Of a DNA stretch of 39,514 bases, positions 18,369 through 34,093 are shown in pieces. The stretch comes from a virus: IMG/VR virus record IMGVR_UViG_3300048672_000137, positions 1 through 39,514 of that record; one strand, 5' to 3'. Position 1 is the stretch's first letter; the number at the start of each line of letters is the position of its first letter. Made by a program: the position numbers and the translations under genes. The notes beneath the pieces were generated by a model. That model searched no databases, had not been told where the DNA came from, and saw only the letters and a list, made by a program, of their open reading frames with translations.

Positions 18369-20623
18369 GCACCAAAACGCTACAGAGGTCCTTCGCGGGA
18401 GGTGAGATAACCCCCGAGCTGTTCGGGCGCCTGGACCTGCCAAAGAACCAGACTGGCATGCAGAAGGTGCTCAACTTTCTGGTGCTGCCTCACGGCCCCC
18501 TGGCCCGCAGGCCAGGTACGGCGTTCCTGAACGAAAGCCGCGACAGCACGAACATCTCGCGGATCATCCCTTTTGTGTACAGCGCCAGCCAGGCCATGGT
18601 CCTGGAGCTTGGCGTCGGGTACATGCGCTTCCACAACGGCAACGGCACACTACTGGAAACCAACTACGCTATAGTTTCTGTAGCGGGAAACACAGTAACG
18701 CAGACGGCTCACGGCTATGCTACCGGGGATTGGGTATTCCTGTCCTTGTCCGGCGCTGGCGGTCGCTTCTTCAAGATCACCGTCACCGGAGCCAACACCT
18801 ACACGACAGCTGACCCCGGCGGCACAGCGGCCAACCCCAACGTTGCGTACAACCAGGCGGCGCGCGTCTACCAGATCGCAACACCATACGTTGCCGACGA
18901 CTTGTTCAGCATCGTCTACGCACAGAACGCAGACGTAATAACGCTGACACTGAACTTGAAGCCAACCCAGGAGCTTCGCCGCCTTGGTGCCACGAACTGG
19001 ACGCTGACCGCCGCCAGCTTCGCACCCACGGTATCGGCGCCCACAGCACCATCCGCTGTCGCCACCGTGGCAGTGGCCACCAACCTGACCACGCAGCGGT
19101 ACGTCGTCACAACGATGGCCAACGACTTGGTAACCGAGTCCCTGCAGACTGCGGTGGTGACGTGCGACAACAACCTGACTCTGGCCGGTAACTTCAACAC
19201 CATCAGCTGGACTGCGGCCGCAGGCGCCAACCGCTACTACGTGTACAAGCAACGTGGTGGAGCCTGGGGCTACATCGGCCAGACAACAGGCCTGAGCCTG
19301 ATCGACGACAACATCACAGCCGACACCACGCAGGTGCCTCCTGAAGCCAACATCTCGCTGAACGCAGCCGCAGGGGACTACCCCGCAGCAACGACCTACC
19401 ACGAGCAGCGTCGGTGGTTCGGCGGGACCATCAACAGCGCACAACGCATATACGCCACGCGCAACGCGACCGACTCGAACATGACGTCCTCGGTCCCCTC
19501 GCGCGACGACGATGCTTTGCAGTTCCGCATCGCGGCTGCTCAGCAGAATGCCATTCGGCATCTGGTCCCCCTGGCCGACTTGCTAGCCCTCACTGCCGGT
19601 GGAGAGTTCCGTATCTACTCGGACGGCTCCAGTTCGGCCATCACGCCAAAGAGTCTGACGGTAAAGCCCCAGGCGTATTGCGGCGCGAACGGCGTACAGC
19701 CAGTCGTAACCAGCGGATCGGCCTTGTACGTCCAGGCGCAGGGCTCACACGTTCGGGAGATTGCCTACGACCCATCAGGCACTGGCTTCTACCGGACGGT
19801 GGACATCAGCCTGATGGCACCTCACTTGTTCAACGGCTACAACATCGTGCAACTGGCGTATTGCCGGGCGCCAGACCAGATGCTGTGGGCGGTGCGCAGC
19901 GACGGTACGCTGCTCGGCCTCACCTACGTCCCGGACCAGAACGTCTACGGCTGGCACCAGCATGTCACAGACGGCTTTGTTGAGTCCATCGCGGTGATAC
20001 CGGAGAACAACACCGACGTGTTGTACATGAGCGTTCGGCGTACCGTTAACGGTCGTACCGTGCGCTATATCGAGAAGCTGCAAACGCGCATCTTCACGAC
20101 GCTGGTAAGCTGCTTCTATGTGGACTCCGGCCTGACGTACACTGGTTCGCCAGTCAGCACCGTGACGGGCCTCTGGCACCTTGAGGGCAAGACGGTAAGC
20201 ATCCTGGCGGACGGCGCAGTGGCACCCAGCGTCACGGTGACGAACGGCACCATCACCTTAGTGACACCGGCCAGCACCATCAGCATCGGCCTGGGTTACG
20301 TCTCCGACGCGCAGACCGTACCGCTAGACCTGGAAGGCGCAGCGGCAGGCGGTATGGGCACCGTGAAGAACGTCAACAAGGTCCACATCCGCGTTGCCCA
20401 AAGCTCGTTGGTGTCCGCAGGCCCTTCGTTCTCCCGGCTAACCGACTACCCTTCGCGCGCCATCAGCGACCCCTATGGCTCTCCACCGGCATTGCGCAAC
20501 GGTGAACTACCCCTGGCGATTGGCGCCTCCTGGCAGTCCGATGCCACGGTATGCGTGCGGGCTTCAGCCCCACTCCCGCTCACGATGCTGAGCATGGCAA
20601 TCGAGGTGGCAGTAGGTGGCTAA
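18365..20623 (+). CDS. Tail nozzle protein (T7 gp12-like tail tubular protein B)
   Basis: 752 residues. N-terminal FAGGEITPELFGRLDL and GMQKVLNFLVLPHGPLARRPGTAF are the conserved gp12-like opening. Then IIPFVYSASQAMVLELGVGYMRF, many beta strands, and YHEQRRWFGGT-NSAQRIYATR near residue 340, typical of the nozzle platform. C-terminal part has VSTVTGLWHLEGKTVSILADGAV and a GLGY segment. It forms the hexameric tail nozzle that receives the fibres. Length is close to T7 gp12 (794). Confidence 0.92.
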   Translation: MSTKTLQRSFAGGEITPELFGRLDLPKNQTGMQKVLNFLVLPHGPLARRPGTAFLNESRDSTNISRIIPFVYSASQAMVLELGVGYMRFHNGNGTLLETNYAIVSVAGNTVTQTAHGYATGDWVFLSLSGAGGRFFKITVTGANTYTTADPGGTAANPNVAYNQAARVYQIATPYVADDLFSIVYAQNADVITLTLNLKPTQELRRLGATNWTLTAASFAPTVSAPTAPSAVATVAVATNLTTQRYVVTTMANDLVTESLQTAVVTCDNNLTLAGNFNTISWTAAAGANRYYVYKQRGGAWGYIGQTTGLSLIDDNITADTTQVPPEANISLNAAAGDYPAATTYHEQRRWFGGTINSAQRIYATRNATDSNMTSSVPSRDDDALQFRIAAAQQNAIRHLVPLADLLALTAGGEFRIYSDGSSSAITPKSLTVKPQAYCGANGVQPVVTSGSALYVQAQGSHVREIAYDPSGTGFYRTVDISLMAPHLFNGYNIVQLAYCRAPDQMLWAVRSDGTLLGLTYVPDQNVYGWHQHVTDGFVESIAVIPENNTDVLYMSVRRTVNGRTVRYIEKLQTRIFTTLVSCFYVDSGLTYTGSPVSTVTGLWHLEGKTVSILADGAVAPSVTVTNGTITLVTPASTISIGLGYVSDAQTVPLDLEGAAAGGMGTVKNVNKVHIRVAQSSLVSAGPSFSRLTDYPSRAISDPYGSPPALRNGELPLAIGASWQSDATVCVRASAPLPLTMLSMAIEVAVGG

Positions 20624-21071
20624 CATCGACGTGCGCAAGCCGCAGTGGGGTGACTCGCTTGAGCTTGTTGTAAAAATGAGACAGGCCGACCTAGAGGAGC
20701 TGGCAGCCCTTGGCTACACTTCCGGCCTAGACCACCTGATCGACACCAGCGTGAACGCTTCAGCCCCGGCCTACACCATCACCGCCGACGGCGATGTCGC
20801 GTGCATCATGGGTGTCGTGCCGTTGGCCGATGGCGCTGCTATCTGGATGCTTGGGACGGACCTCGTTACTGTGCACCAGCGTGCGCTTATGCGTCTATGC
20901 CGACCCTACATTCAAGCCTTCCTGAGCGAGTACAAACACCTTTACAACTACGTCCACGCAGACAACACCCGCGCGGTACGGTGGCTTAAAAGTGTTGGTT
21001 TTACGCTACAGTCCCCGGAACCCTACGGCCCTCTCGGGTCGCCTTTCCACAGATTCGATATGAGGTCCTGA
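20616..21071 (+). CDS. GNAT-like internal virion protein A (T7 gp13 position)
   Basis: 151 residues from a GTG start at 20616, overlapping the nozzle gene by 8 bases; GAGG lies about nine bases upstream. The sequence has an acetyltransferase-like layout: MRQADLEELAALGY, GDVACIMGVVPLADGAAIWMLGTD, and YNYVHADNTRAVRWLKSVGFTLQSPEPYG, a typical GNAT end. T7 gp13 is related to this fold, and the gene order nozzle-gp13-gp14 fits. Enzyme activity is not assured; it is more likely a structural or morphogenesis use of the fold. Confidence 0.82.
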   Translation: MANIDVRKPQWGDSLELVVKMRQADLEELAALGYTSGLDHLIDTSVNASAPAYTITADGDVACIMGVVPLADGAAIWMLGTDLVTVHQRALMRLCRPYIQAFLSEYKHLYNYVHADNTRAVRWLKSVGFTLQSPEPYGPLGSPFHRFDMRS

Positions 21072-21072
21072 T

Positions 21073-21594
21073 ATGTGCGAGCCCACCACCCTACTGATTG
21101 CCAGCTCTGCGCTGGCGGTTACGAGCGCAGTGGCCCAAGGGCAAGCCAAGCAGGACCAGGCCAACTACGAGGCCGGTGTCGCACGCGACAACCAGAAGAC
21201 AGCCAAGTTCGCTGCGCAAGACGCATTGCGCCGTGGCGACATTGAGGCTGGCCGGGTACAGCGCAACGCCAACAGCGTACTCGGATCGCAACGCGCCAGC
21301 TTCGCCGCCAAGGGTTTGGACCTGCGTGACGGCACGCCCGGCGACATCATGGACCAGACCAACTTCTTCGGCAAGATTGACGCCGAGAGCGCCCGGTACA
21401 ACGGTAAGGTCGAAGCCTGGCAGAAGCAAAGCCAGGCCAACAACTTCGGCGCCCAGGCGTCCGCTGCCTCCTCCCGTGCCGGTAGCGCCATGACGGAGAG
21501 CTTGCTTTCCGCAGGCACCTCGGTGGCCTCCAACTGGTACTCCTACGGTGGCGGAGCCCCGAAGGCAAAACCGAAGATGGACTGGTACGAGTAA
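21073..21594 (+). CDS. Internal virion protein B-like (T7 gp14 type)
   Basis: 173 residues. It begins MCEPTTLLIASSALAVTSAVAQGQAKQ, the usual MC-D/E-P start and hydrophobic helix of gp14-like proteins, then a long helical stretch NYEAGVARDNQKTAKFAAQDALRRGDIEAGRVQ and NSVLGSQRASFAAKGLDLRDGTPGDIM. In T7, gp14 is ejected and forms the outer-membrane pore. The C-terminus ends with a Gly/Pro/Lys linker. Confidence 0.85.
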   Translation: MCEPTTLLIASSALAVTSAVAQGQAKQDQANYEAGVARDNQKTAKFAAQDALRRGDIEAGRVQRNANSVLGSQRASFAAKGLDLRDGTPGDIMDQTNFFGKIDAESARYNGKVEAWQKQSQANNFGAQASAASSRAGSAMTESLLSAGTSVASNWYSYGGGAPKAKPKMDWYE

Positions 21595-21595
21595 C

Positions 21596-23338
21596 ATGCC
21601 AACAATACCCGCCTACGATGGCCCTCAAGTACGCCAAGCCGCGCTTGAGGGTGGCTTCCAACAGAACCAGGACATCAGCTCCGGTCGCCTTGGCGTAGCG
21701 AAAGCGCTGCAGGGTGCAGGGGACGCACTGGACAAGCTGGACCAGCAACGCGCTACGCTTCAAGCCCAAGAGGCTGAAGTGAAGATTCGCCAGGCTTGGT
21801 ACGAAACCGACACGCGACTGCGCAAAGAGTTCAGCGGAACCAAGATCGGCGGCTACCAAGCTGCCGTCGACAAGTGGTGGAACGAAGACGCCAAGACCCT
21901 GGGCGAAGGCCTGGATGGGCGTGCCCAGATGATTGCCAGCCGGTCTCTAGTTGCGGCTCGTGACATCGCCACTCGCACAACGTCGAACTACGCCCAGGCT
22001 GAGACTGCACGCGTCGAGGAGGTAGGCCACGCCGCTGCCAAGAACGCGGTTATCCAGGGCGCCCTGACGGCGGTAAAGGATGGCGACGTACAGGCGGCAC
22101 CCATGGCCGCTACTGACATCCGTGCGAAGAACGCGAGGTGGGGTGAGTTACGCAACCTGTCAGCGGACGAGGTAGCGTACCACAACGTCAAGGACCTGAC
22201 GACGCTGCACAGCAACGTTATCAGCCAGCTCAGCGAAACCAACCCCGCAGCTGCGCGCGCCTACTGGGATAAGCTGGACAAGGGCAAAGAGTTCGACGCC
22301 ACACGCGTTGACGAAGTAGATAAGCTGTTGAAGCAGGCCACCGGGCAGCACAACGCTCAGTCGTTTGGCGACGAGGTGATGGCCAAGAAGATGACACTGG
22401 AAGACGCTCTGGCCGAGGCGCGCAAACGCTTCGATGGCAAGGACGAGGAGATGGCCCTGGCTGAGGTTAAGACCCGCTTCACGGAGCAGGAAGTGATACA
22501 GTCGCGTCAGGCGAAGGCCGTTGAGAAACAGGGCTGGTCTATTCTCATGGAGAAAGGCAGCATGAGCGCTATCCCTCCGTCACTGATGGTGACCCTGCGC
22601 GAGCAGGCGCCAGAGGCCGAGCGCCAGATGCGCGACTGGCTGGCAGCCAAGGCTCGCCAGGCAAAGGCCGATGCCGAGGGCAAGAGCGACCCAGACGAGT
22701 TTGGCCGGTACTACACTTACCGCGTCATGGCCATGGAAGACCCGCAAAAGTTCTCCAAGCTGAATCTGACCCAGGTACAGCCCTACGTCAGCAAGCAGCA
22801 ACTCAACCACCTGGTCGAACTGCAAGGTGGCATCGAGCGCAGTGACGCCAAGGCCATGGACCTGAACACCCAGGTCAAGACTGCAGTGTCCAGCGTGAAG
22901 ACGGCCATACTGGCAAGCGGCCTGGACATGACACCTAAAGAAGGGTCAGCCGCTGCGACTGAGTACAACAACTTCATGGGCTCCGTCACCATGGCTATTA
23001 GCGAAGCTCAGCGCGCAGCAGGTGACAAACCGCTGCCTCCTGAGAAGCTGAAAGCCATCGGCATGGACATGTTGCGCGTCAAGTACGAGCAGGGCTCTGG
23101 CATCTTCGGTGCGTTCCGTAGCACGAAGAAGGGCTACCAGGTCATAGCCGACCCGAACAGCGCAAACAAGAACTTTGTGGACACGCCTTACGGAGAAATT
23201 CCCGAGGCCATCCGCAATCAGCTGGAAGCCGACGCCCCTGGTCCGAAGACCACCGGCATGTATGGAACCAAGCGCATCGACAAAGAGGCGATAGAGCGTG
23301 CGTACCAGCGTGGGCGCGAGCAAGGAAGGTTTAAGTAA
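21596..23338 (+). CDS. Internal virion protein (T7 gp15-like position)
   Basis: 580 residues. The start at ATG 21596 (MPTIPAYDGPQV) is chosen because it follows the previous stop by one base; a longer frame would overlap gp14. Mostly helical, rich in Ala, Gln, Lys: QQNQDISSGRLGVAKALQGAGDALDKLDQQRATLQAQEAEVK and W-ETDTRLRKEFSGTKIGGY are typical of internal core proteins with a tail-fibre-independent role in DNA ejection. C-terminus GMYGTKRIDKEAIERAYQRGREQGRFK. It overlaps the giant gene by TAATG. Confidence 0.82.
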   Translation: MPTIPAYDGPQVRQAALEGGFQQNQDISSGRLGVAKALQGAGDALDKLDQQRATLQAQEAEVKIRQAWYETDTRLRKEFSGTKIGGYQAAVDKWWNEDAKTLGEGLDGRAQMIASRSLVAARDIATRTTSNYAQAETARVEEVGHAAAKNAVIQGALTAVKDGDVQAAPMAATDIRAKNARWGELRNLSADEVAYHNVKDLTTLHSNVISQLSETNPAAARAYWDKLDKGKEFDATRVDEVDKLLKQATGQHNAQSFGDEVMAKKMTLEDALAEARKRFDGKDEEMALAEVKTRFTEQEVIQSRQAKAVEKQGWSILMEKGSMSAIPPSLMVTLREQAPEAERQMRDWLAAKARQAKADAEGKSDPDEFGRYYTYRVMAMEDPQKFSKLNLTQVQPYVSKQQLNHLVELQGGIERSDAKAMDLNTQVKTAVSSVKTAILASGLDMTPKEGSAAATEYNNFMGSVTMAISEAQRAAGDKPLPPEKLKAIGMDMLRVKYEQGSGIFGAFRSTKKGYQVIADPNSANKNFVDTPYGEIPEAIRNQLEADAPGPKTTGMYGTKRIDKEAIERAYQRGREQGRFK

Positions 23339-26300
23339 TGGGCCAGTATTCTGACCTCTTCAACGATACGCCAGCCCCACCGGCTAACCCCGGCACGGCA
23401 GTGCAGCTCACCGCCGACGCGGTGCCACAGCAAGAGGTTAAGTACAAAGACCTGGCAGCCCGGTACAAGGTGCCGGTTGACGTCGTTCGCACTTTCCCAA
23501 AGGACTACGAGGTCAAGGCCAAGGTCGATGATGTCGACAGCGCCACAGCCAATGCACCCCACCTGCGAAGCTGGCTAGCCGACACACGCAATACGCCCTT
23601 GGTCGATACCAAGGACGTAGGCGTGCTGAGCACCTTGGAGACTGCGCTGGCTAACACCGGCAAAGCCATCTTGAGTGCAGGCCCGAAGTTCAACGAAGGT
23701 GCATGGGGCGTGGCCCGAGCCGGTGCTGAACTGCTGCCAGACATCGTTGGCCTGCCTGCGGCCGAGCTGTTCGCCAAGTACGGCGGCATCCAGCGGTCTA
23801 CGGCAAACGAGCTGATGCCGAAGGCAGAAAGCGTACTGGGCGCCGGATGGTACTCTGGCATGCAGTCACTCGGCCTGAACATCCTGCAGATGCCGCTCGG
23901 CATTGGCGGAAAGCTAGCCCCAGTACTCGCATCCATGGGCCTGTCTACAGGTGGCCAGGCGTATGGCGAAGCGCGCGACGCCGGAGTCGGCATCCCCAAG
24001 GCTCTGATGTTCGGAGCCTCACAAGGCGTGATCGAAGCAGGCACAGAGATGATGGGCTTGCCCGCTGCCCTGGGCGTGTTCAAGCCCGGGCAGTTTGGCG
24101 CCAAGGCCATGGAGTACCTGTGGAAGGATCAAGTCGGAGAGCAGATCGCAACCCACCTTCAGGACCTTAACGAGTGGGCTGTGCTGCATCCAGAAAAGAC
24201 GCTGCAGGACTACATCGACGAGCGCCCAGACGCAGCCCTGCAAACCGCCCTGGCAACGGCCTTCGGTGGTGGCGGCCAGGTGGTGCTCAGTAAGGTCGTG
24301 CAGAAGGGCCTGCAGATCGCGGCGAAGGATCACGGGCAGGAGCGCGCCCAGGCCAACGCCGACCAGCTCGGCCAGATGCTGGCCTTGGCTGCACAAGCGC
24401 AGCTGCGCGAGCAAAGCCCCCAGACGTTCGCTGAAGTGTCACAACACCTGGCGGAGCAAACCGAAGGTGCACCTACCGAGGTGCGCTTCGACGCACGCAC
24501 GTTGGGCGAGGTGCTAAACCAAGACGAGATAGCGATGCTTCCAAGCGTTGCTTCCCAGATGCAAGAGGCCCTGGCCACTGGCGGAGAGGTCCGTGTGCCT
24601 ATCGGTGAACTGCTGGCCAGCGTTGCAGGAACTCCGGTCGAGAAGAAGCTCACCGAGCATGCACGCATTGGCGATGCTGACATGAGCCAGGCGGAAGCCA
24701 AAGAGGCGCAAGCCCAGGCCGAGACCTACCTGCAAGACGAGGCCAAGCGCGTCATCTCTGAAGCCACCGATACCGTGGCCGCTCAGGCAAGCGCAGATAA
24801 GGTAAAGGCCAACATCCACAGCCAGCTCACCACCTTGGCTCGGTTCACGTCGGATGTGAACGGGGCCTACGCAACTGTGGCAGCCAACATGTACACCGCA
24901 CTGGCATCACGCCTGGGCGTTACAGCGGAAGAGGCCTACGACCGCTACCCGCTGAAGATTAACGGCGTCAACCCAGCGACCCAAGGAGAGGTGCTTAACT
25001 CACGTCCCGGTGCGCTCAGCGTTGAGGGCTACCACTACAGCAAGGCCGAGCGGCCTATCATCAGTGGGCACGCCTTTGGCTCAGGGCTGAAGGGCAGCAA
25101 CCAGGATATGTACGCGAACGCGGAAGACAAGCGCTTGCGCAATCGCTCGTACTTCTACGTTGACACCGGCACTGGTATCACGCCTGAAGCAGGTGTCGGT
25201 GGCATCGGCCACCGCGCTCAGCTCAACAACATCTATGACGCCAACACCGACCCCCTGCGCTTGCGCAAAGGCGGCCAGCTGGCGTTCGAGAGCGCGGTGC
25301 TAGACAACGGCTTCGACGGCTACCTGGACCGGCTCAGCGGCACCCAGCCTGGGCAGGTGGTCGTACTCAACGGAAAGATGGTAGACGCCGAGGTGCTTGG
25401 CCCTACCGGCAAGACCAAGGGCAAAGTAGTGCCAGCTGTTGGCACACGCGAAAGCATTGGCCGGGATCAGGTCGTGGACCGGGTTACCGCCAACAACGCT
25501 TTGCCCTCCGGCGCCCCTACCCTGGCGCGATGGGCTGAGCTGCTTCCAACTGAAGACTACGCTGCCATGAAGCAAGCTGGCGTCTTTGATGGGGACCTTA
25601 CCAAGACGATGTACAAGTCGGAACTGGTGAAGGCTTTTGAGAGCAAAACGGAGGACCCAGTTTATGGCCAACGAGACCGAGAAGGAAGCCGCGCGATTGG
25701 AAGCGATACGCCGCTACCAGGTGCGCCAAAGATTGAAGGCGCGAGCGGCCCAGACCAACGCCTCGTAGACGTTGCCGAAACCTACGCTGCCAGCGTAGGT
25801 ATCGACCTGCGCCGTCAGAGCGAGTACGTGAAGGTTGATCCAGAGCGTGCTGCACGTATCGCGCAGGCCTACGAGGACATGAAACACGCACCTCAAGACC
25901 CCGAGGTGAAGGCTGCCTACGCCGACCTCATAAAGCAGACCCTGGCGCAGTACAAAGCACTGGAGGACGCCGGGTACAAGTTCACCTTCTTCGACAGCAG
26001 CACCGACCCCTACAAAGGCAACCCATGGAACGCAATGCGCGACCTGCGCGCGAACCAGACGATGGCTGTGTACGGCACCTACGACGGCTACGGCACTGAG
26101 GGTGTGACCCAGGGAGCCACCGAGGACAACCCCATGCTGGCCGACACCGGCCTGCAGTGGCCAGACCAAGGCGGGGTGATGCATCCTGTGCTGGCCAACG
26201 ACCTGTTCCGTGCAGTGCACGATGCCTTCGGCCACGGCTTCGAGGGTGCTGGCTTCCGGGCAGACGGCGAGGAGAACGCCTGGCAAGCCCACGTGCGTTT

Positions 26301-28956
26301 GTTCACCGGCCCTGCTGTGGCGGCGATAACCACCGAGACGCGCGGCCAAAACAGCTGGCTGAACTACGGCCCCCACGGCGAGAGCAACCGCAACGCCAAG
26401 GTGGAGGACACTGTTTTTGCTGACCAGAAAACAGGTCTCATGCCAGCGTGGACCTGGGAAGAAGGCCGCGCCGGAGATATGCCAGAAGCGGTATACGAGC
26501 AGTCGGACCCGAAGAAGATTGCAGGGCTTGCACGCATCGAAAAGAACCTTACACCAGCGGAGCGAAACAAGCTCAACAAAGGCACTGCCCAGCGCCTGGT
26601 AGACCTGTTCAAAGGCCTACCGCCTACTGACCAGTTCGTAGCTGCAGCTTGGGCTGGCAGGGCCAAGCGTGGGTGGTACAAAGAAAGTGCACTGGCCATT
26701 GGTCAGGTGTTTGGTCCTGACGCTCCTCGCTTTGCCGGACTGCTGGCGGCCATGTCGCCTCAAAACTCAGTCGAAACCAATCTACTTAACACCCTCAACA
26801 CCTGGAAAAACTGGGTGGCCGCCGGGCGTCCTACCTCGCGCGAAGACATCGTGCAGATCATGGGCCGTTCGGTAGAAGGCACAGGCGGCGTTAGCAGCGT
26901 GTTGGATGCATGGATCAACAACAGCGTTCGCGCGCTGACGACAGAGAACCCAGGGCAGGATTTACTGTCAGGACCAAAGGTTGACAGCTTCATGCGCAAT
27001 TTGCTCAACGACGTAGAGCAGGTGACGAACGACGCTTGGATGGCCAACTTCGCCTTTGTCGACCAGAAGATGTTTAAGGGTGGCCTTAACGCTACGGACG
27101 CAGGAAAAGGCCCGGGCTACCTGGCCATGAGCGCCAAGGTACGCGAAGCAGCAAAGGTGCTGACCGAGAAGACCGGGGAGCAGTGGACACCCGCCGAGGT
27201 TCAGGAGACAATCTGGTCGTGGGCCAAAACACTGTACGAAGCGCAAGAGGCGGACATCTCTGCCAGCGATATTCTGTACAACGAGCAACTGACCCACGAA
27301 ATGATCCGGGCCACGCCCGACTTTAAGGGGTTATTCCATGACGAAAAGTACGAAAAAATCCTCCGCGACGCGGGATATGGCAGTCAACTCGACGCTCTCG
27401 ATCCTGGATCAGCAGGCCGTGAAGTCGCCGGACTTAGCGAGCAAGCAGGCCCGTTTGATAGCGCTACTCAGTACAAACACGAACTCGCCAGCGCCAAACG
27501 ACTTGAAGACCTAAAACGCTACGGAAAACCTGACTCGGCTAAAGTCTACGAGCAGGCTGACAACAAGTACCAATCCAAGTACCTAGCTGGCCGCGATGTC
27601 GCCTCACTCAACCCCGAGGAGCGGGCGCAGTACGACGCCTTGGCGACACCGGAAGTGCTCAACGCCCCTGGCGCTCGCGGCACCTTCAACCCGAAGACGC
27701 TGACCATAAGCCTGCTGGAGAGGGCCAACCTCTCCACGTTCCACCACGAGATGGCGCACTTCTACCTGGAGACGCTGATCGACGTCGCCAGCGGGCCGAA
27801 CGCACCTGCGCCTATCGTGTCGGACGTTAACACCCTAATGGGCTGGTTCGGTGTCAAGGACCTGGCGACGTGGAATGGCATGAGCTTCGAGGCCAAGCGC
27901 GCCAGCCATGAGAAGTTTGCGGAGCACTACGAGCGCTACCTGTTCGAGGGCCAGTCTCCCAACCAGGAGATGCAGACACTCTTCCGCCGGTTCTCCACCT
28001 GGATGAAGGACGTCTACAAGAACGTCAAGGACTGGATGGAAGGCATGGGCAAAACGCTCACGCCCGAAGTCCGTGGCGTCTATGATCGGATGCTGGCCAC
28101 AGACGCCCAGATCGAAGAGGCAGAGCACGTTCGCAATTACGCCCCGCTATTCAAGTCCGCAGACCAGGCTGGTATGACACCAGAGGCCTGGACCATCTAT
28201 CAGCTGCAAGCCCAAGAGGCTACCGAGACGGCGATGGAGAATCTGCAGACGCGCAGCTTGCGTGACATGAAGCTGACGATCAACGCCCAGTCGCGTGCGC
28301 TCAAGGCTCTCACCAAGGACGCTGCCGAGAAGCGCAAAGCGATTGAGGCTGAGGTCAAGATGGAAGTCGCCAGCTTGCCGGTGTACGAGGCCAAGGCGTA
28401 CCTGGACGCAGCGCACAAGCCAACCGCCGAGGACAAGGCAGCGAGCGCAGCCCACAAGGCTCTACGCGATGCTGCTGCGGCCAAGGCACTGGAAGACGCC
28501 AAGGCAGCGCTTCCTGGGTTCGCTGAGGTCAAGGGCCTGGAGAAAGCCCAGCTGGTGGCCAAGAGCAAGCGCGAGCTAACCAACGCTGTAGACCGGGAGA
28601 TGATCGCCTGGGACCGGGCAAACCCCAAACCCGAGAAGACCAACTCGGAGACGGACCTGCAGGTGGCCAGCGAGATGTTCGGCTACTCGTCTCCCGACGA
28701 GATGCTGCGTGCCATCCGGGAGGCAGAGCCTTTCGCAGGCGTCGTCGACGGCATGACCGACCAGCGTATGCTGGAGCGCTACGGGGACCTGGCCACGCCG
28801 AAGGCTTTGGCCAACGCTGCCAACGCCGCCGTGCACAACGAGGCACGCGCAAGGTTCATTGCAACTGAGCTGAAGGCGCTTAACGAAGGCATGCGCTTAA
28901 CCCCTCCCAGTCGTCTTAGCATTCTTGAGAAGCTGAAGGAGTGCCTAGGATCATGA
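23338..28956 (+). CDS. Giant polyvalent internal virion protein (ART-like domain, two conserved phage domains, zinc metallopeptidase motif)
   Basis: 1872 residues, at the place of T7 gp16. Visible order: N-terminal linker; amphipathic region about 175-250; helical region; ART-like domain at about 560-690 (GYHYSKAERPIISGHAFG, EAGVGGIGHRAQL, FDGYLDR; Tyr565-His566); a conserved phage domain at about 810-1045 (HDAFGH 961-966, FRADGEENAW, ETRGQNSW); another at about 1100-1305 (GWYKESALAIG 1112-1122, SPQNS 1140-1144, GPKVDSF 1212, TNDAWM 1230); and a zincin-like HHEMAH at 1469-1474 (HExxH with His1470, Glu1471, His1474). The C-terminus is a long charged helix. Such multi-domain proteins have been described as polyvalent proteins carried with phage DNA and injected to act on host defences. 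ART identity is my inference. Confidence 0.85.
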   Translation: MGQYSDLFNDTPAPPANPGTAVQLTADAVPQQEVKYKDLAARYKVPVDVVRTFPKDYEVKAKVDDVDSATANAPHLRSWLADTRNTPLVDTKDVGVLSTLETALANTGKAILSAGPKFNEGAWGVARAGAELLPDIVGLPAAELFAKYGGIQRSTANELMPKAESVLGAGWYSGMQSLGLNILQMPLGIGGKLAPVLASMGLSTGGQAYGEARDAGVGIPKALMFGASQGVIEAGTEMMGLPAALGVFKPGQFGAKAMEYLWKDQVGEQIATHLQDLNEWAVLHPEKTLQDYIDERPDAALQTALATAFGGGGQVVLSKVVQKGLQIAAKDHGQERAQANADQLGQMLALAAQAQLREQSPQTFAEVSQHLAEQTEGAPTEVRFDARTLGEVLNQDEIAMLPSVASQMQEALATGGEVRVPIGELLASVAGTPVEKKLTEHARIGDADMSQAEAKEAQAQAETYLQDEAKRVISEATDTVAAQASADKVKANIHSQLTTLARFTSDVNGAYATVAANMYTALASRLGVTAEEAYDRYPLKINGVNPATQGEVLNSRPGALSVEGYHYSKAERPIISGHAFGSGLKGSNQDMYANAEDKRLRNRSYFYVDTGTGITPEAGVGGIGHRAQLNNIYDANTDPLRLRKGGQLAFESAVLDNGFDGYLDRLSGTQPGQVVVLNGKMVDAEVLGPTGKTKGKVVPAVGTRESIGRDQVVDRVTANNALPSGAPTLARWAELLPTEDYAAMKQAGVFDGDLTKTMYKSELVKAFESKTEDPVYGQRDREGSRAIGSDTPLPGAPKIEGASGPDQRLVDVAETYAASVGIDLRRQSEYVKVDPERAARIAQAYEDMKHAPQDPEVKAAYADLIKQTLAQYKALEDAGYKFTFFDSSTDPYKGNPWNAMRDLRANQTMAVYGTYDGYGTEGVTQGATEDNPMLADTGLQWPDQGGVMHPVLANDLFRAVHDAFGHGFEGAGFRADGEENAWQAHVRLFTGPAVAAITTETRGQNSWLNYGPHGESNRNAKVEDTVFADQKTGLMPAWTWEEGRAGDMPEAVYEQSDPKKIAGLARIEKNLTPAERNKLNKGTAQRLVDLFKGLPPTDQFVAAAWAGRAKRGWYKESALAIGQVFGPDAPRFAGLLAAMSPQNSVETNLLNTLNTWKNWVAAGRPTSREDIVQIMGRSVEGTGGVSSVLDAWINNSVRALTTENPGQDLLSGPKVDSFMRNLLNDVEQVTNDAWMANFAFVDQKMFKGGLNATDAGKGPGYLAMSAKVREAAKVLTEKTGEQWTPAEVQETIWSWAKTLYEAQEADISASDILYNEQLTHEMIRATPDFKGLFHDEKYEKILRDAGYGSQLDALDPGSAGREVAGLSEQAGPFDSATQYKHELASAKRLEDLKRYGKPDSAKVYEQADNKYQSKYLAGRDVASLNPEERAQYDALATPEVLNAPGARGTFNPKTLTISLLERANLSTFHHEMAHFYLETLIDVASGPNAPAPIVSDVNTLMGWFGVKDLATWNGMSFEAKRASHEKFAEHYERYLFEGQSPNQEMQTLFRRFSTWMKDVYKNVKDWMEGMGKTLTPEVRGVYDRMLATDAQIEEAEHVRNYAPLFKSADQAGMTPEAWTIYQLQAQEATETAMENLQTRSLRDMKLTINAQSRALKALTKDAAEKRKAIEAEVKMEVASLPVYEAKAYLDAAHKPTAEDKAASAAHKALRDAAAAKALEDAKAALPGFAEVKGLEKAQLVAKSKRELTNAVDREMIAWDRANPKPEKTNSETDLQVASEMFGYSSPDEMLRAIREAEPFAGVVDGMTDQRMLERYGDLATPKALANAANAAVHNEARARFIATELKALNEGMRLTPPSRLSILEKLKECLGS
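25664..25768 (+). CDS. Possible embedded out-of-frame small ORF 1 within the giant gene
   Basis: 34 residues (MANETEKEAARLEAIRRY...), +1 to the main frame, preceded by GGAGG nine bases before ATG. It lies in the linker between the ART-like domain and the following conserved domain. The peptide is basic and helical. Chance is a serious alternative; expression is unknown. Confidence 0.22.
   Translation: MANETEKEAARLEAIRRYQVRQRLKARAAQTNAS
27338..27514 (+). CDS. Possible embedded out-of-frame small ORF 2 within the giant gene
   Basis: 58 residues (MTKSTKKSSATRDMAVNSTL...), again +1 to the main frame, with AAGGGG eight bases before ATG. It lies in the linker before the metallopeptidase-like domain. 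Its Ser/Thr/Lys-rich composition shows no known domain. Chance cannot be excluded. Confidence 0.22.
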   Translation: MTKSTKKSSATRDMAVNSTLSILDQQAVKSPDLASKQARLIALLSTNTNSPAPNDLKT

Positions 28957-29288
28957 ACACCACATCAAGCATGGAGATAGGCGCGGCCCTGGCGGACCTC
29001 GTATCTTTGGCGGAGAAAGACGCAGTAACGCTACCGGCAATGCTGGAGGCGTTAAAGGCTTTGGTGGCCAAGAGCACAACGCCCGTAGTCAACGTGGCGG
29101 CCCCGAACGTCAACGTGGCGGCCCCCAACGTGAATGTGGCCGCCCCGGCCGTCAACGTAACCGCCCAAGCAGGGCAAACCATCGTAAAGCTCGTGGAGCC
29201 AACGAAAAAGAAAGTGAGCCTGAAGGTTCACTACAACGACAGTGGACGCATCGACACGATGGACGTCGTAACCGTAGCAGAGGGCTAA
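28953..29288 (+). CDS. Small protein with VNVAAP repeats
   Basis: 111 residues from ATG 28953, overlapping the giant gene stop by ATGA. The N-terminal helix MEIGAALADLVSLAEKDAVTLPAMLEALKALVAK is followed by four tandem seven-residue units (V-NVAAPN), encoded by 21-bp DNA repeats, then a charged C-terminus KKKVSLKVHYNDSGRIDTMDV. Proteins with similar APxVNV repeats occur near tail fibre genes of many phages, probably forming beta-helical connectors. Function not established. The in-frame GTG at 28941 is too near its own AAGGA to be favoured. Confidence 0.75.
   Translation: MNTTSSMEIGAALADLVSLAEKDAVTLPAMLEALKALVAKSTTPVVNVAAPNVNVAAPNVNVAAPAVNVTAQAGQTIVKLVEPTKKKVSLKVHYNDSGRIDTMDVVTVAEG
29088..29171 (+). 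repeat. Four tandem 21-bp coding repeats
   Basis: Units start at 29088, 29109, 29130 and 29151; the first two differ by a single base. They encode VNVAAPN-type heptads in the small protein. Confidence 0.85.
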
Positions 29289-29291
29289 ACC

Positions 29292-29666
29292 ATGGCAGTC
29301 TCAATGGCAACCGCCTTGCGGAACAACCGCTTGGACCAGATCACATCTTTCGCTGGCGCTGGCGCTAAGCTGCGGGTCTACACCGCTGCCTATGCTGCGG
29401 TCCTGTATGAGTCCACCTGCGCTGCCACCTTCGCTGCTGCGGCCTCGGGCGGCGTGCTCACCGCCAACGCTATCGGCAACGCTACCGCAACGGGGTCTGG
29501 GACCGCAGCCATCGCCCGCCTGTACAAGTCGGACGGCACGACCATGGTATTGGAAGGCTTGACCGTCGGCACCAGCGGCACGAACATCGTCATCGCCAAC
29601 ACCACTATCGTCGCCCTTGACACGATCACAACCTCCAGTGCGACCATCACTGAAGGGAACCCATAA
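29292..29666 (+). CDS. Small tail-module structural protein
   Basis: 124 residues. MAVSMATALRNNRLDQITSFAGAGAKLRVYTAAYAA and later GGVLTANAIGNATATGSGTAAIARLYKSDGTTMVLEGLTVG, TSATITEGNP match the recurrent beta-rich phage proteins in tail-tip and baseplate regions. No catalytic residues. Preceded by AGAGGG. Role as tail-tip/fibre accessory is inferred from position between the repeat protein and the next fibre-like protein. Confidence 0.72.
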   Translation: MAVSMATALRNNRLDQITSFAGAGAKLRVYTAAYAAVLYESTCAATFAAAASGGVLTANAIGNATATGSGTAAIARLYKSDGTTMVLEGLTVGTSGTNIVIANTTIVALDTITTSSATITEGNP

Positions 29667-29669
29667 GCG

Positions 29670-30599
29670 ATGTCCCTGAAACACGCCTTTGTCAGTGGAA
29701 AAACTGATGGCGGTGACGCTACGCAGGTGCAGCCGTCGAACTGGAATGCTGACCACGCTATTGATGCCGATGGAGTAGTCATTCCGGCAGGGGCACTGCC
29801 AGCGGCACCAGCGTCGGGAAACTACCGACTATTTGCAAAAAGCCAAGGTGGGCGGGTTATGCCCGCCTTCATGGGCCCCAGCGGATTGGACTCTGTTCTG
29901 CAACCCCACATGGCAAAGAGCGGGTGGGCGATGTGGAGACCAGCGGGCCAGTCAACAACCATCCAGGCCACCGGGGCCGCCGCGCTAACCGCCACTGGGA
30001 CCGCAACGACCAAAAGCTACGCAACCACCAGCCTGCACACCCGCACCACTGGCGTTGACTACCTAGTAACCACGGCAGCAACCACTGCGGTGGCGGGATA
30101 CCGCGCAGCAACAAATACCTACCGTGTAACTGACGGCTTCCACATGATTTTTCGTGTGGCTCCTGCTACTGGCGGCACTGTTGCAACAGGGCGTTTCTTT
30201 TGCGGAATGAGTACATCAACCGCAGCGCCAACGGATGTAGACCCATCAACACTTACGCAAATTTGCGGGGTGGGCTATGCAAAGGGAACTGATACCAATT
30301 GGCAAATTTACTTTGGCGGAACTGCCACCGCCAAGGTGAACACTGGCATGGCAGTGCCTGCTGCAGATCGCAGCGGCCCATTCACAGTCATCATATTTTC
30401 GCCACCCGGCGGTGCGTACATCGGCGTCAAGATCGTAGACGAAACAACCGGCGTCAGTTTTGAAAGCACTACGACAACAAGCACCAACATGATGGCGGCA
30501 GCGACAGCAGCAGGCCCCCGCGCATACCACTCGGTAGGCGGTACGTCTAGCGTTGTCGGCCTAACGCTGTTTCTGGGCTACGTTGAAACGGATAACTGA
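29670..30599 (+). CDS. Probable tail-tip/fibre protein
   Basis: 309 residues. N-terminus SLKHAFVSGKTDGGDATQVQPSNWNADHAI is the typical start of phage fibre/adsorption proteins (phosphate-free GD-TQVQPSNWNA-H pattern). The rest is Thr/Ala/Gly-rich beta-structure with a jelly-roll-like C-terminal domain (GRFFCGMSTSTAAP to SVVGLTLFLGYVE). Likely a carbohydrate-binding or trimeric surface protein. No variable-repeat pair or reverse transcriptase nearby, unlike BPP-1 mtd. Confidence 0.7.
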   Translation: MSLKHAFVSGKTDGGDATQVQPSNWNADHAIDADGVVIPAGALPAAPASGNYRLFAKSQGGRVMPAFMGPSGLDSVLQPHMAKSGWAMWRPAGQSTTIQATGAAALTATGTATTKSYATTSLHTRTTGVDYLVTTAATTAVAGYRAATNTYRVTDGFHMIFRVAPATGGTVATGRFFCGMSTSTAAPTDVDPSTLTQICGVGYAKGTDTNWQIYFGGTATAKVNTGMAVPAADRSGPFTVIIFSPPGGAYIGVKIVDETTGVSFESTTTTSTNMMAAATAAGPRAYHSVGGTSSVVGLTLFLGYVETDN

Positions 30600-30601
30600 C
30601 C

Positions 30602-31330
30602 ATGGCTGCGTTCGATAGTGGCGCGTTCGATAGTGGCGCGTTCGACGCAGGGGGTGGCGGTGGCCCCGCCACCCACAACCAATCCCTGGCACTAACCCTT
30701 GACGGGGTTGCAGTTTCTGCGGCGCAGAATCTTCAGCATAGCCAAGCGCTGGCGCTCACTCTAGGGGATGTCGGCGTTGCTGTTGCGCAGACGGAGCAAC
30801 ACGACCAAGTAGCGGGCGTCACGTTAGGGGACGCCTCCGTAGCGGTAGCGCAAACGAACACCGGCTCCAGCGGCGGCACCTACAACCAGGCCCTGGCGCT
30901 CACACTAGATGACGTCACTCCTGCGACCAACCAGGTCCTCCAGCACAGCCAAGCCTTGGCGGTTACGCTGGGCGACGTGTCCGTTGCGGCAGCGCAAACG
31001 CTGCAGCACAGCCAAGCCCTGGCCCTCACGCTTGGTGATGCCAGCGTATCGGCCAGCCAAACAGCAAATCACCCGCAAGCCCTTGCCGTTACTCTTGATG
31101 ATGCTACTGTTTTTGTAGCACAGACAAATTCAGGCCAGAGTCTACCGAACACCTACGATCAGGCCTTCGCTGTCATCCTTGGTGACATCGTGGCAAGCGT
31201 GCAGCAGATCGGCCCCCCACCCCCTGGTGCGACAATAGGCTCGGCGGGGGGACTCCAGCGCCAGATAAGACAACAGAACGAGGACGTCATCGCCCTTGTT
31301 CTTTCACTGATACACAGCGAGGTAATCTAA
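30602..31330 (+). CDS. Repeat protein of the tail tip (eight 21-residue repeats)
   Basis: 242 residues. The N-terminus is a triplet FDSGAFDSGAFDAG typical of phage tail proteins. Then eight units of about 21 residues on the pattern HSQALALTLGDVSVAAAQTLQ (residues about 25-215), two with Gly/Ser-rich inserts. C-terminus: QNEDVIALVLSLIHSEVI, probably a short helix. The repeats predict a regular beta-solenoid or stacked strands. Similar repeats appear in phage tail-module proteins. The gene is immediately followed by the 920-residue protein (stop then ATG without gap). Confidence 0.72.
   Translation: MAAFDSGAFDSGAFDAGGGGGPATHNQSLALTLDGVAVSAAQNLQHSQALALTLGDVGVAVAQTEQHDQVAGVTLGDASVAVAQTNTGSSGGTYNQALALTLDDVTPATNQVLQHSQALAVTLGDVSVAAAQTLQHSQALALTLGDASVSASQTANHPQALAVTLDDATVFVAQTNSGQSLPNTYDQAFAVILGDIVASVQQIGPPPPGATIGSAGGLQRQIRQQNEDVIALVLSLIHSEVI
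30675..31200 (+). repeat. Eight degenerate 63-bp coding repeats
   Basis: Clear periodicity of 63 bases, for example cagcacagccaag at 30941 and 31004; the third unit carries an 18-base insertion (GSSGGT). The repeats encode the 21-residue units of the tail-tip protein. Confidence 0.8.
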
Positions 31331-34093
31331 ATGGGCACCCTTACCGGCTGCATGGCAAAGGCAGGCAAGCTACTGCACTCTAAAGACCGGGAGGCCATCC
31401 TCCAGCGGGCGTCCAGCTTACGTGCAAGCGGCATGGACGCGCAGGCGGCTGCGGTTGCTGCTGTAGACCAGCATATCGCCACGGTTAAAGCGCAGCCGGA
31501 TCGCAAAGCGCTCGGCAGCGTCAACACGCTGGTGGCTGCGGCCAAGGAGTTCGCGGCAGGGCTTGTGGCAGGACGCAAGGTACGCGACCTAAAGCCTGGC
31601 GCCCACGCGGCAGCAGAGGTGCGTGCTGCGAAGAATGCAGAGAAGGCTATGGTGAAGGGTGATACCCAGTCGGCCATCGTCGCTAAGCGAGACCAGCTGC
31701 TGCAGTTTCACGCTGCCAAGGCCACGACGGAAGCGCAGGCTGAGATTGATAAAAAGGTCAAGAACCTGAAGGCCATCAGCGCCAATGACAAGCTGCCTAT
31801 CGAGTACCGCGACCAAGTGGACAAACTGCTGGAGCGCGTGGACCTGAAAGACCGCACACTGCGTGAGCTGGACAAGCGCGCCAAGCTGTCGGCGTGGTTG
31901 GAGTCCCAAGAGGAGATAGGCTTAGAGCCCGAAGTGCCGGACTACCTTAAAGAAGATAGCCAGCTCACCAGTTACAAGGACATGACCGTCGAGGAGTTCC
32001 GGGGGCTCTACGACACGATCAAACAGATTGAGCACTTGGGGCGCCTGAAGAATACCCTGCTGACAGCCAAGGACAAGCGGGAGTTCAACGCCGCGCGTGA
32101 CGACATTGCCGAAAGCATTACGACCCTGGCGGGTGACCGCAGCACCAACCCTCGCACCGCAACGACCAAAGGTGGTCGGTGGCTGCAGGCCGTCAAGGAC
32201 TTCGGCAGCGCGCACATCAAGGCTGCCACATGGGCTCGCGTGTTCGACGGCGGCAAGGACGGTGGCAAGGTGTGGGAATACTTTGTGCGCTCGGCCAACG
32301 AGAAAGCAGGCTGGGAAACCACCAAGCGCGCAGAGGCCACAGAGAAGCTGACCGACATCCTGCATCCGTGGCTGGCCAAGGGCGACCTGGGAAAGCAAAC
32401 CTTCTTCCCTTCCATCAATCGAAGCCTGACGCGCCAAGAGGTACTGGCCATCGCGCTGAACACTGGCAACGAGTCCAACCTGCAACGACTGCTGGGTGGA
32501 GAGGGCTGGACCCAGCAGCAACTGGAGCCGGTGCTCAGCACCCTGGACTCTACCGAGTGGTCCGTGGTTCAAGGCGTTTGGGATCACATGGAAAGCTACT
32601 GGGAAGCCATCGAAGCCAAGAACCTGCGGGTCTACGGTAAGCGGTTGAACAAGGTGGAGATTGGATCGGACATCGCCACCAAGCACGGCCTGCGCGGAGG
32701 ATACTACCCCGTCAAGTACGACCCTCGCGCCAGCATACGGGCGGAGGAGCATGCGGACGCAGAAGGCGCACGACGCCAGCTCAAAGGTGCGTACAACGCT
32801 GCCACCACGCGCCGGTCATTCACGAAGGCGCGTGCCGACGAGGTGAACGGGCGTCCACTGCTGTACAACCTGAGCGGCCTGTACTCCGGCGTCAACGACG
32901 TGATCCACGACCTGGCCTGGCACGAGTGGCTTATCGACACCAACCGCCTGCTGAAGTCGACGGCTATCGACACTGCCATCCGCGAGCACTACGGGGACGC
33001 TGCTGCACGCCAGCTCAAGACCTGGCGCGACGCGATTGCCGAAGGGGATACCGGAACCCAGGAGGCCATGGATAGTGCCCTGAGCTGGTTGCGCCAGTCG
33101 GTGAGCGTTGCGGGCCTGGGCTACAACGTGATGTCTGCTGCGATGCAACCTATCGGGTTGACCAACTCGATCAGCCGGGTGGGCATGAAGTGGGTGGCGA
33201 AGGGCGTTGCCGCCTACACTGCACACCCTGTACAGCAAACCCAGGAGGCACGCGAGAAGTCGGTGTTCATGGCCAACCGCGCACGCACCCAGTTCCGTGA
33301 CCTCAACGAGCTGCGCAACCGAGTGCAGGGTGAGGACACAGTAATGAACGGCGTGCGCAAGAACGCCTACTTCCTGATGATGCAGGCCCAGAGCATGGTG
33401 GACGTGCCAACCTGGCATGGCGCCTACGAGAAGGCCATCAGCGAAGGCAACGACGAAGTGCGCGCCGTCGACCTGGCAGACCAGGCGGTCATCGACTCCC
33501 AGGGTGGGGGTGAGACCAAGGACTTGTCGGCCATCGAGCGTGGCGGCCCCGCGCAAAAACTGTTCACCACCTTCTACAGCTTTATGAACACAGTGGCCAA
33601 CATGGGCTACGCCAACGCCCGCACAGGTGACACAGCCCAGAAGGCTATGTCCATCCTGCTGCTTGGCGTACTGCCTGCCATTCTGCCTGCACTACTGAAG
33701 GACGCCCTGACCCCCGGTGGCTCGGACGATGACTGGAAAGCGCTGATGCGCAAACTGCTGGGCGAGCAGCTGTCCTACCTGATGGGCATGATGGTGGTGT
33801 CGCGGGAGTTTGCCGAGGCAGGCAAGACGGTTACCGGAACGACAGACCACCCGCGCGACTACTCTGGCCCTGCCGGTGTTCGCATGGTGGCTGATGCGGG
33901 AACGTTTGCCAAGCAGCTCTACCAGGGCGAGCTGGACGATGCCTTCCGCAAGGCAGCCATCAACCTGGTAGGCGACCTGGCCGGTCTTCCTTCAGCCCAG
34001 CTCAACCGAAGCATCACTGGAACCAAGGCCCTGCTGGACGGCAAGACTAACAACCCGATGGCGGTCCTGATGGGCTACCAGGAACCGAAGTGA
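31331..34093 (+). CDS. Large internal virion/polyvalent-type protein
   Basis: 920 residues. It starts MGTLTGCMAKAGKLLHSKDREAILQRASSLRASG, then long helical regions. The middle contains a recurrent phage segment (GGYYPVKYDPRAS near residue 458, LLYNLSGLYSGVNDVIHDLAWHEWLIDTNRLL), followed by GLGYNVMSAAMQPIGLTNS and a hydrophobic helix SILLLGVLPAILPALLKDAL near residue 780, able to cross a membrane. C-terminus: PSAQLNRSITGTKALLDGKTNNPMAVLMGY. These features match the large polyvalent-protein associated type proteins of phages, which may be ejected with the DNA. It probably works with the 1872-residue protein in DNA ejection. No catalytic motif seen. Confidence 0.78.
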   Translation: MGTLTGCMAKAGKLLHSKDREAILQRASSLRASGMDAQAAAVAAVDQHIATVKAQPDRKALGSVNTLVAAAKEFAAGLVAGRKVRDLKPGAHAAAEVRAAKNAEKAMVKGDTQSAIVAKRDQLLQFHAAKATTEAQAEIDKKVKNLKAISANDKLPIEYRDQVDKLLERVDLKDRTLRELDKRAKLSAWLESQEEIGLEPEVPDYLKEDSQLTSYKDMTVEEFRGLYDTIKQIEHLGRLKNTLLTAKDKREFNAARDDIAESITTLAGDRSTNPRTATTKGGRWLQAVKDFGSAHIKAATWARVFDGGKDGGKVWEYFVRSANEKAGWETTKRAEATEKLTDILHPWLAKGDLGKQTFFPSINRSLTRQEVLAIALNTGNESNLQRLLGGEGWTQQQLEPVLSTLDSTEWSVVQGVWDHMESYWEAIEAKNLRVYGKRLNKVEIGSDIATKHGLRGGYYPVKYDPRASIRAEEHADAEGARRQLKGAYNAATTRRSFTKARADEVNGRPLLYNLSGLYSGVNDVIHDLAWHEWLIDTNRLLKSTAIDTAIREHYGDAAARQLKTWRDAIAEGDTGTQEAMDSALSWLRQSVSVAGLGYNVMSAAMQPIGLTNSISRVGMKWVAKGVAAYTAHPVQQTQEAREKSVFMANRARTQFRDLNELRNRVQGEDTVMNGVRKNAYFLMMQAQSMVDVPTWHGAYEKAISEGNDEVRAVDLADQAVIDSQGGGETKDLSAIERGGPAQKLFTTFYSFMNTVANMGYANARTGDTAQKAMSILLLGVLPAILPALLKDALTPGGSDDDWKALMRKLLGEQLSYLMGMMVVSREFAEAGKTVTGTTDHPRDYSGPAGVRMVADAGTFAKQLYQGELDDAFRKAAINLVGDLAGLPSAQLNRSITGTKALLDGKTNNPMAVLMGYQEPK

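Follow-up and report, generated by a model that had tools for sequence, protein, structure and literature searches.

Polyvalent proteins form a known class, few members of which have been characterised. Iyer et al. 2017 (PMC5512222) set out their design, and suggested that such proteins are injected early and processed by a zincin. The proteins in that study are multi-domain and of phage type, combine LPD22, zincin and ART domains, and are predicted to be injected. One representative is Bbp10 of Bordetella phage BPP-1. In Bbp10, an LPD22 domain is present and PBECR1, a predicted RNase, fills an interior segment of the protein. Separately, degradation of S-adenosylmethionine (SAM) by phage SAM lyases has precedent and benefits the phage (PMC7877911, PMC8406200). 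The T3 SAMase and its relatives deplete SAM at infection, and are early products of the phage genome.

We analysed a 39.5 kb phage genome record, the whole of which is referred to as the window. It encodes a polyvalent protein of the Bbp10 type. The class is known already, and the set of cargo domains is its less known part. A first-pass annotation, made from the DNA sequence, had proposed one ejected protein that seems to combine an ART-like domain, two conserved phage domains and a zincin-like motif.

A constant backbone surrounds a cargo slot

Features of the locus are listed in Table 1. As first annotated, the polyvalent gene is one open frame of 1872 residues; the ORF and its translation confirm an ATG start, 1872 codons and zero internal stops. 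LPD22, an ART-like domain, a second cargo domain (D2), a third (D3, DUF7178) and a zincin are found within this single ORF, which places the product in the polyvalent class. Matches among PHROGs were to phrog_9880 (E 2e-157), phrog_3170 (D2) and phrog_3842 (D3). No match was found in NCBIfam with the whole protein or its domains. Likewise, PDB sequence searches with the whole protein, or with profiles of domain 1, D2 and D3, returned nothing credible. A single-protein scan of viral sequences recovered one relative only. Fragments containing the ART-like domain, D2 and D3 were aligned as two alignments anchored by multi-domain rows. The labels 'crystallin beta/gamma' and 'lysis protein', attached to relatives, were disregarded as inherited annotation that nothing here supports.

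Table 1. Coordinates of features at the polyvalent protein locus, numbered from the start of the window.
Feature	Positions	Strand	Support
T7 gp13-like internal virion protein gene	20616..21071	+	PF11090 E 3e-7; phrog_308 E 1e-34
Internal virion protein gene, phrog_418	21073..21594	+	E 4e-33
596-aa ORF between phrog_418 gene and polyvalent gene	21548..23338	+	Without family match
Polyvalent internal virion protein, N-terminal part, 1872 aa	23338..28956	+	ORF and translation, phrog_9880, LPD22, DUF7178, Bbp10 homology
LPD22, residues 21-110; start of constant N-terminal backbone (to ~541)	23398..23667	+	Pfam PF18834 E 5e-8; also in Bbp10
Cargo domain 1, ART-like, residues ~548-725; H566, Y607, E651	24979..25512	+	Alignments, AF2, hhalign
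Cargo domain 2 (D2), residues ~785-1055	25690..26502	+	133-sequence alignment, phrog_3170, AF2
Cargo domain 3 (D3), residues ~1060-1400; DUF7178 core 1102-1294	26515..27537	+	PF23802, phrog_3842, AF2
Zincin-like metallopeptidase, residues ~1444-1696; HE1471xxH1474, E1525	27667..28425	+	HExxH in 83/83 relatives
Conserved helical C-terminus, residues 1701-1872, ending ...EKLKECLGS at the split point	28438..28953	+	
Insert gene 1, 115 aa	28941..29288	+	Homologue at same place in relative L394, 48%
Insert gene 2, 124 aa, virion structural family phrog_3758	29292..29666	+	76% in L394
Insert gene 3, 309 aa, phrog_13925	29670..30599	+	
Insert gene 4, 242 aa, repetitive	30602..31330	+	Homologue in L394
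C-terminal half of ancestral giant protein as own gene, 920 aa	31331..34093	+	phrog_9880 and Bbp10 matches

All of the motifs named in the first-pass annotation are present and are conserved far above chance. In the polyvalent protein we located YHYS (565, containing H566), HDAFGH (961-966), GEENAW (977-982), TETRGQ (999-1004), SPQNS (1140), GPKVDSF (1212), TNDAWM (1230) and HHEMAH (1469, containing E1471). Such motifs are not chance occurrences because they occupy nearly invariant positions in large, diverse families. Side chains that had been picked for alteration (H566, H961/H966 and E1471) rank among the most conserved.

Homology to Bbp10 covers residues 24-541 and 1446-1848, with none in between. 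The intervening cargo slot (residues ~545 to ~1440) lies before the zincin and its contents differ between phages. In BPP-1 the slot holds PBECR1, while podoviruses ctEw122 and DC33 have true ART-PolyVal domains in it. Here, the slot contains three domains; the ART-like domain, D2 and D3. Hence, the protein pairs a constant backbone with a cargo slot, since Bbp10 homology flanks the slot only and other domains reside there in relatives. Giant ORFs in IMG/VR carry ART-like, D2, D3 and ART-PolyVal domains in many orders around the same backbone. Examples from viral contigs are NT-ART-D3-D2-ZN, NT-D3-D2-ART-ZN and D2-D3. We are highly confident in this polyvalent cargo-slot architecture. At the level of sequence, both the architecture and the exchange of cargo are established, as are the conservation of residues of active-site type and the splitting of the gene described below. 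This gives polyvalent proteins a concrete anatomy: a fixed backbone, one cargo slot and shuffled modules.

The protein and Bbp10 share the LPD22 N-terminal backbone, the zincin, the C-terminus and a C-terminal half (here the ORF starting at 31331). Their genes also sit at equivalent positions in the cassette of virion genes. They differ in that Bbp10 has PBECR1 in the slot and is encoded by one continuous gene, whereas here the slot is occupied by the ART-like domain, D2 and D3, and four ORFs interrupt the gene.

Gene order points to probable delivery with the virion

The polyvalent gene is found among virion and injection genes, after those matching phrog_308 and phrog_418. Tail, major capsid, protease, connector and terminase genes lie further upstream. 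Together, LPD22, the phrog_9880 match and the adjoining T7 gp13/gp14-like internal virion genes bear out the original assignment to polyvalent proteins of internal virion type. From gene order, the 596-residue ORF probably holds the position of a gp15-like ejection protein. The same evidence underlies the word 'ejected', and makes virion delivery of the polyvalent protein likely. The product would correspond to the leading portion of an internal virion protein like Bbp10 or T7 gp16, packaged in the virion and ejected early along with the DNA.

The zincin is a core function and domain 1 is ART-like

The predicted zincin-like motif, HHEMAH, has an intact HExxH in every relative. Furthermore, H1470, E1471, H1474 and a downstream glutamate, E1525, were found in 100% of 83 zincin sequences. 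The domain is at the same place in BPP-1 and in other phages. Because HE1471xxH1474 and E1525 are kept in all 83 relatives, we consider the peptidase to be a core function rather than cargo. It would release cargo or cut host targets.

The proposed ART-like domain is supported as a divergent one, as judged by H566, Y607 and a collinear profile alignment, and a Pfam search gave zero matches, PF18760 (ART-PolyVal) included. Among ~57 relatives, H566 is conserved in 96%, Y607 in 100% and E651 in 98%. Comparison with the ART-PolyVal family using hhalign gave P 0.0013, collinear over 135 columns; control profiles gave 0.12-0.23. Two of the three seeds of the ART-PolyVal profile were checked and both match PF18760 at 1e-22 or better. 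Most residue blocks of the AF2 model have pLDDT about 90-96, and H566 and Y607 both fall in predicted strands. In ART-PolyVal, strand 1 carries the H and strand 2 the Y. The two differ in that domain 1 has YHYS/YHFS where ART-PolyVal has YHGT, and in their third motifs. Weak structural matches of the model, to BC2332 (2aua) and a PARP-like viral protein, point in the same direction as the profile. BC2332 (SCOP d.166.1.6) is listed among ADP-ribosyltransferase families (PMC3000352). An ART fold for domain 1 is probable. The domain would ADP-ribosylate host proteins.

D3 resembles DNA glycosylases at a pair of invariant residues

D3 matches Pfam PF23802 above the curated cut-off (E 7e-13). G1212-K1214 (GPK) and D1232 are invariant in 45/45 sequences, with a Lys to Asp spacing of 18. 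Identical spacing was found in 13/13 HhH-GPD proteins examined, where the first position is Lys in Nth-type enzymes and Ser or Tyr elsewhere. The spacing in D3 is thus that of HhH-GPD enzymes, in which the catalytic Asp comes a set distance after the HhH hairpin, with a Lys as well in bifunctional members. In the all-helical AF2 model (pLDDT about 95), K1214 is at a helix start and D1232 is just ahead of the next helix. The corresponding hhalign comparison with HhH-GPD profiles gave P 0.0023 in the wrong register, leaving GPK and the Asp unaligned. Foldseek searches of the PDB with the D3 model, which was multi-domain, gave no match below E 0.001. The match of highest probability, which was insignificant, was a phage 5-PmdU glycinyltransferase (8z2n). 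In SEA-PHAGES records, mycobacteriophage relatives of DUF7178 are labelled 'glycosylase'; the word is absent from the text of PMC5512222. On balance we favour a glycosylase fold for D3. It would act on bases as an enzyme with a DNA-glycosylase fold.

DUF7178 also occurs as a separate phage protein of ~560-635 residues (L102-L147), with an N-terminus that is of low complexity and partly hydrophobic.

D2 is a widespread family with a metal-site-like signature

D2 has the signature NDxFRxVHDxxGH-x11-E-x6-H-x14-ET-x2-Q...QK. In an alignment of 133 viral and bacterial sequences, N954, R958, H961, D962, H966, G977, E978, H985 and Q1004 are 100% conserved. The figure is 99% for E1000, and K1031 is present in 100% of rows reaching that position. 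No model in Pfam (2025) matches D2, or those bacterial relatives that were scanned. The domain is encoded in at least 590 IMG/VR stretches and in 107 stretches of bacterial and archaeal genomes. It is free-standing in Bixzunavirus and in Streptomyces phages. When a named D2 protein was sought on plasmids, only 'hypothetical protein' was found. Four sequences (L101, L110, L179 and L200) have a ~100-residue insertion within D2, after its N-terminal helices and ahead of the HDxxGH helix.

The AF2 block for D2 has pLDDT about 96. In this model, H961-H966, E978/H985 and E1000/Q1004 are on three successive helices. A Foldseek search of the PDB with the D2-containing model, which held two domains, gave no match below E 0.001. 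In the Alr8543 structure, the COQ4 motif HDXXH-(X)11-E forms a metal site (PMC9774615). D2 has HDx3H-x11-E; one residue more. Like COQ4 (PF05019), D2 has R-x2-HD-x2/3-H-x3-G-x6-G-E, with shared R(-3), G(+4) and G(+11). Unlike COQ4, it has the extra residue in the helix motif and additional invariant H985, E1000 and Q1004. Profile comparisons by hhalign were not significant for either COQ4 (P 0.007, probability 5.5%) or the aromatic amino acid hydroxylase family PheH (PF00351; P 0.0019, probability 14.5%). Seven control families gave P 0.07-0.7, and the COQ4 and PheH targets had been chosen for their motif. We considered membership of D2 in the COQ4 or PheH family and do not claim either kinship because the comparisons are too weak and the targets were deliberately chosen. 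We nevertheless think it likely that D2 is a metalloenzyme.

The family alignments support the first-pass view that D2 and D3 have enzyme-like invariant residues. That annotation had also raised plain helical fillers as a contrary outcome. This description does not fit D2 or the ART-like domain, which are mixed alpha/beta in high-confidence models. It fits D3 in so far as D3 is all-helical, yet D3 has an invariant Lys/Asp pair at glycosylase spacing.

Some bacterial D2 genes adjoin genes for SAM metabolism

We counted 62 bacterial D2 loci, each with a D2 ORF under 700 residues. At least one gene of SAM or sulfur metabolism is near D2 in 23 of these. An adenosylhomocysteinase gene is within 5 kb of D2 in 16/62 loci; chance would account for well under 1% of loci, assuming ~1 such gene per genome. 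Two arrangements recur. In type 1 (11 loci, several phyla), D2 shares a compact operon with an adenosylhomocysteinase-like Rossmann protein and DUF3293, the last being present in all such operons but one. It occurs in genomes of Chryseobacterium, Aquimarina, Aureispira, Enterovibrio, Ruegeria, Pelagibius and the BD1-7 clade. Type 2 (12 loci) is found in Proteobacteria and Actinobacteria, including Paraburkholderia, a gammaproteobacterium, Streptomyces and other actinobacteria. Here, D2 neighbours are some or all of homocysteine S-methyltransferase, methyltransferase, adenosylhomocysteinase, cystathionine-synthase-like and SufS-like genes. Neither the Microbacterium-type nor the Micromonosporaceae D2 groups have SAM-cycle neighbours. 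In 14 Micromonosporaceae loci D2 adjoins an N6-methylase gene (e.g. L304 and L312), and L312, the representative locus examined, has UvrD-helicase and Cas3-HD genes downstream of D2. Among the papers searched, none names DUF7178 or DUF3293.

In the type 1 operons, which include L280, L273, L274, L276 and L281, the Rossmann protein is ~355 residues long. D2 and DUF3293 are fused in L282. The type 2 clusters L301, L302, L310, L325, L326 and L329 could be sulfur or methyl biosynthetic clusters.

Possible roles of the cargo

Because of this genomic context, metabolism of SAM and S-adenosylhomocysteine (SAH) is the best lead for D2 chemistry. We propose it tentatively. D2 would be a metal-dependent enzyme of SAM/SAH metabolism, with HDx3H-x11-E as its site. 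On entry, it would lower or alter SAM-derived pools, and so blunt SAM-dependent defences, perhaps restriction. As with phage SAM lyases, SAM would be depleted at infection; D2 differs in that it would ride in the virion. Pfam and PDB sequence searches found no relation of D2 to known SAM lyases or phosphodiesterases. An extended proposal is more speculative, and on present evidence we would not expect all of it to hold. This is that phages recruited a widespread metalloenzyme family from bacterial SAM/SAH metabolism, and carry it in virions as swappable cargo to disable SAM-dependent restriction, methylation or SAM-derived signalling at DNA entry, before phage gene expression. For the protein as a whole, we lean slightly towards an internal virion protein with swappable cargo that includes an ART, a base-directed D3 and a SAM/SAH-directed D2.

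D2 and D3 might instead act on nucleic acid, altering or removing modified bases in host or phage DNA at entry. D3 would then be like a DNA glycosylase or an amino-acid:DNA transferase, with D2 as its partner. The GPK...(18)...D of D3, as in HhH-GPD enzymes, is consistent with this, as are the insignificant match of its model to 8z2n and the 'glycosylase' label on DUF7178 relatives. D2-D3 fusions, seen in 7 viral ORFs and a bacterial protein, also fit. However, most viral D2 ORFs were seen without a detected D3, and the neighbours of D2 in 23 bacterial loci belong to sulfur and SAM metabolism, not DNA modification. We judge a joint action on bases to be unlikely, though worth weighing. The bacterial fusion (L288:4899-6698, from an Acidipila MAG) is 600 residues long and has no other recognised domain.

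Three further readings appear less probable. D2 could remove a SAM-derived immune signal, such as the SAM-AMP of type III CRISPR, rather than SAM. SAM lyases can break down SAM-AMP, and a possible role as anti-CRISPRs has been suggested for them (PMC10600005); the Micromonosporaceae loci place D2 beside an N6-methylase and, in the one examined, near Cas3-HD and UvrD-helicase. Conversely, Cas3 marks type I rather than type III CRISPR, and the searches above found no homology of D2 to known SAM lyases or phosphodiesterases. We regard this as improbable. Equally doubtful is that D2 is a remote relative of the aromatic amino acid hydroxylases, with an HDxxGH...E iron site that oxidises a small molecule or side chain. 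HDxFGH is shared, with a Glu 34 residues downstream, and hhalign gives P 0.0019. Yet the hhalign probability is only 15%, no PheH was among the 50 structural matches listed, and the spacing and position of E978 suit the COQ4 signature better. Least probable, and to us very unlikely, is that the middle domains are passive spacers or structural modules of an ejection machine. They do lie in a giant internal virion protein and D3 is all-helical. Against this, invariant His, Asp, Glu, Gln and Lys residues recur across phages and free-standing bacterial proteins, and relatives have no cargo or have other enzyme domains instead.

The SAM/SAH neighbours of bacterial D2 genes, and the closeness of the D2 signature to the COQ4 metal motif, are new here. 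For D2, a very frequent cargo domain, the free-standing bacterial relatives in SAM/SAH operons and the defined invariant residues provide a first functional lead. If the SAM/SAH reading is true, a metabolic counter-defence delivered by the virion would reside in one domain of ~270 residues.

The ancestral giant gene is split

The first-pass annotation missed the splitting of the gene and the anatomy of the cargo slot. The ORF is real but covers just the N-terminal part of the ancestral protein, as a separate ORF downstream encodes the counterpart of the C-terminal half of Bbp10/phrog_9880. The product of this second ORF matches phrog_9880 positions 1301-2213 (E 2e-246), is 61% identical to Bbp10 1185-2052 and has one strongly hydrophobic segment near residue 773. 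A single continuous polypeptide is usual for Bbp10/phrog_9880 proteins, rather than defining, and is not what is found here. Four insert ORFs are tightly packed between the halves (28956-31331). In 75 of 80 relatives of the C-terminal half, both halves are in one frame. Two others (L394 and L396) have the split in common with the window, and three are cut by contig ends. The new termini are kept in 3/3 split cases; ...LKEC ends the first protein and MGTLTGC starts the second. Hence, we consider the split to be a maintained state. Sequencing error was ruled out as the cause, since the split recurs in two relatives and the new termini are conserved there.

The product of insert gene 4 consists of near-repeats of SQALALTLGDVxVAxAQT and is likely a fibre or decoration protein. 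Each new terminus has one conserved Cys, and MGTLTGC is lipobox-like, without a signal peptide.
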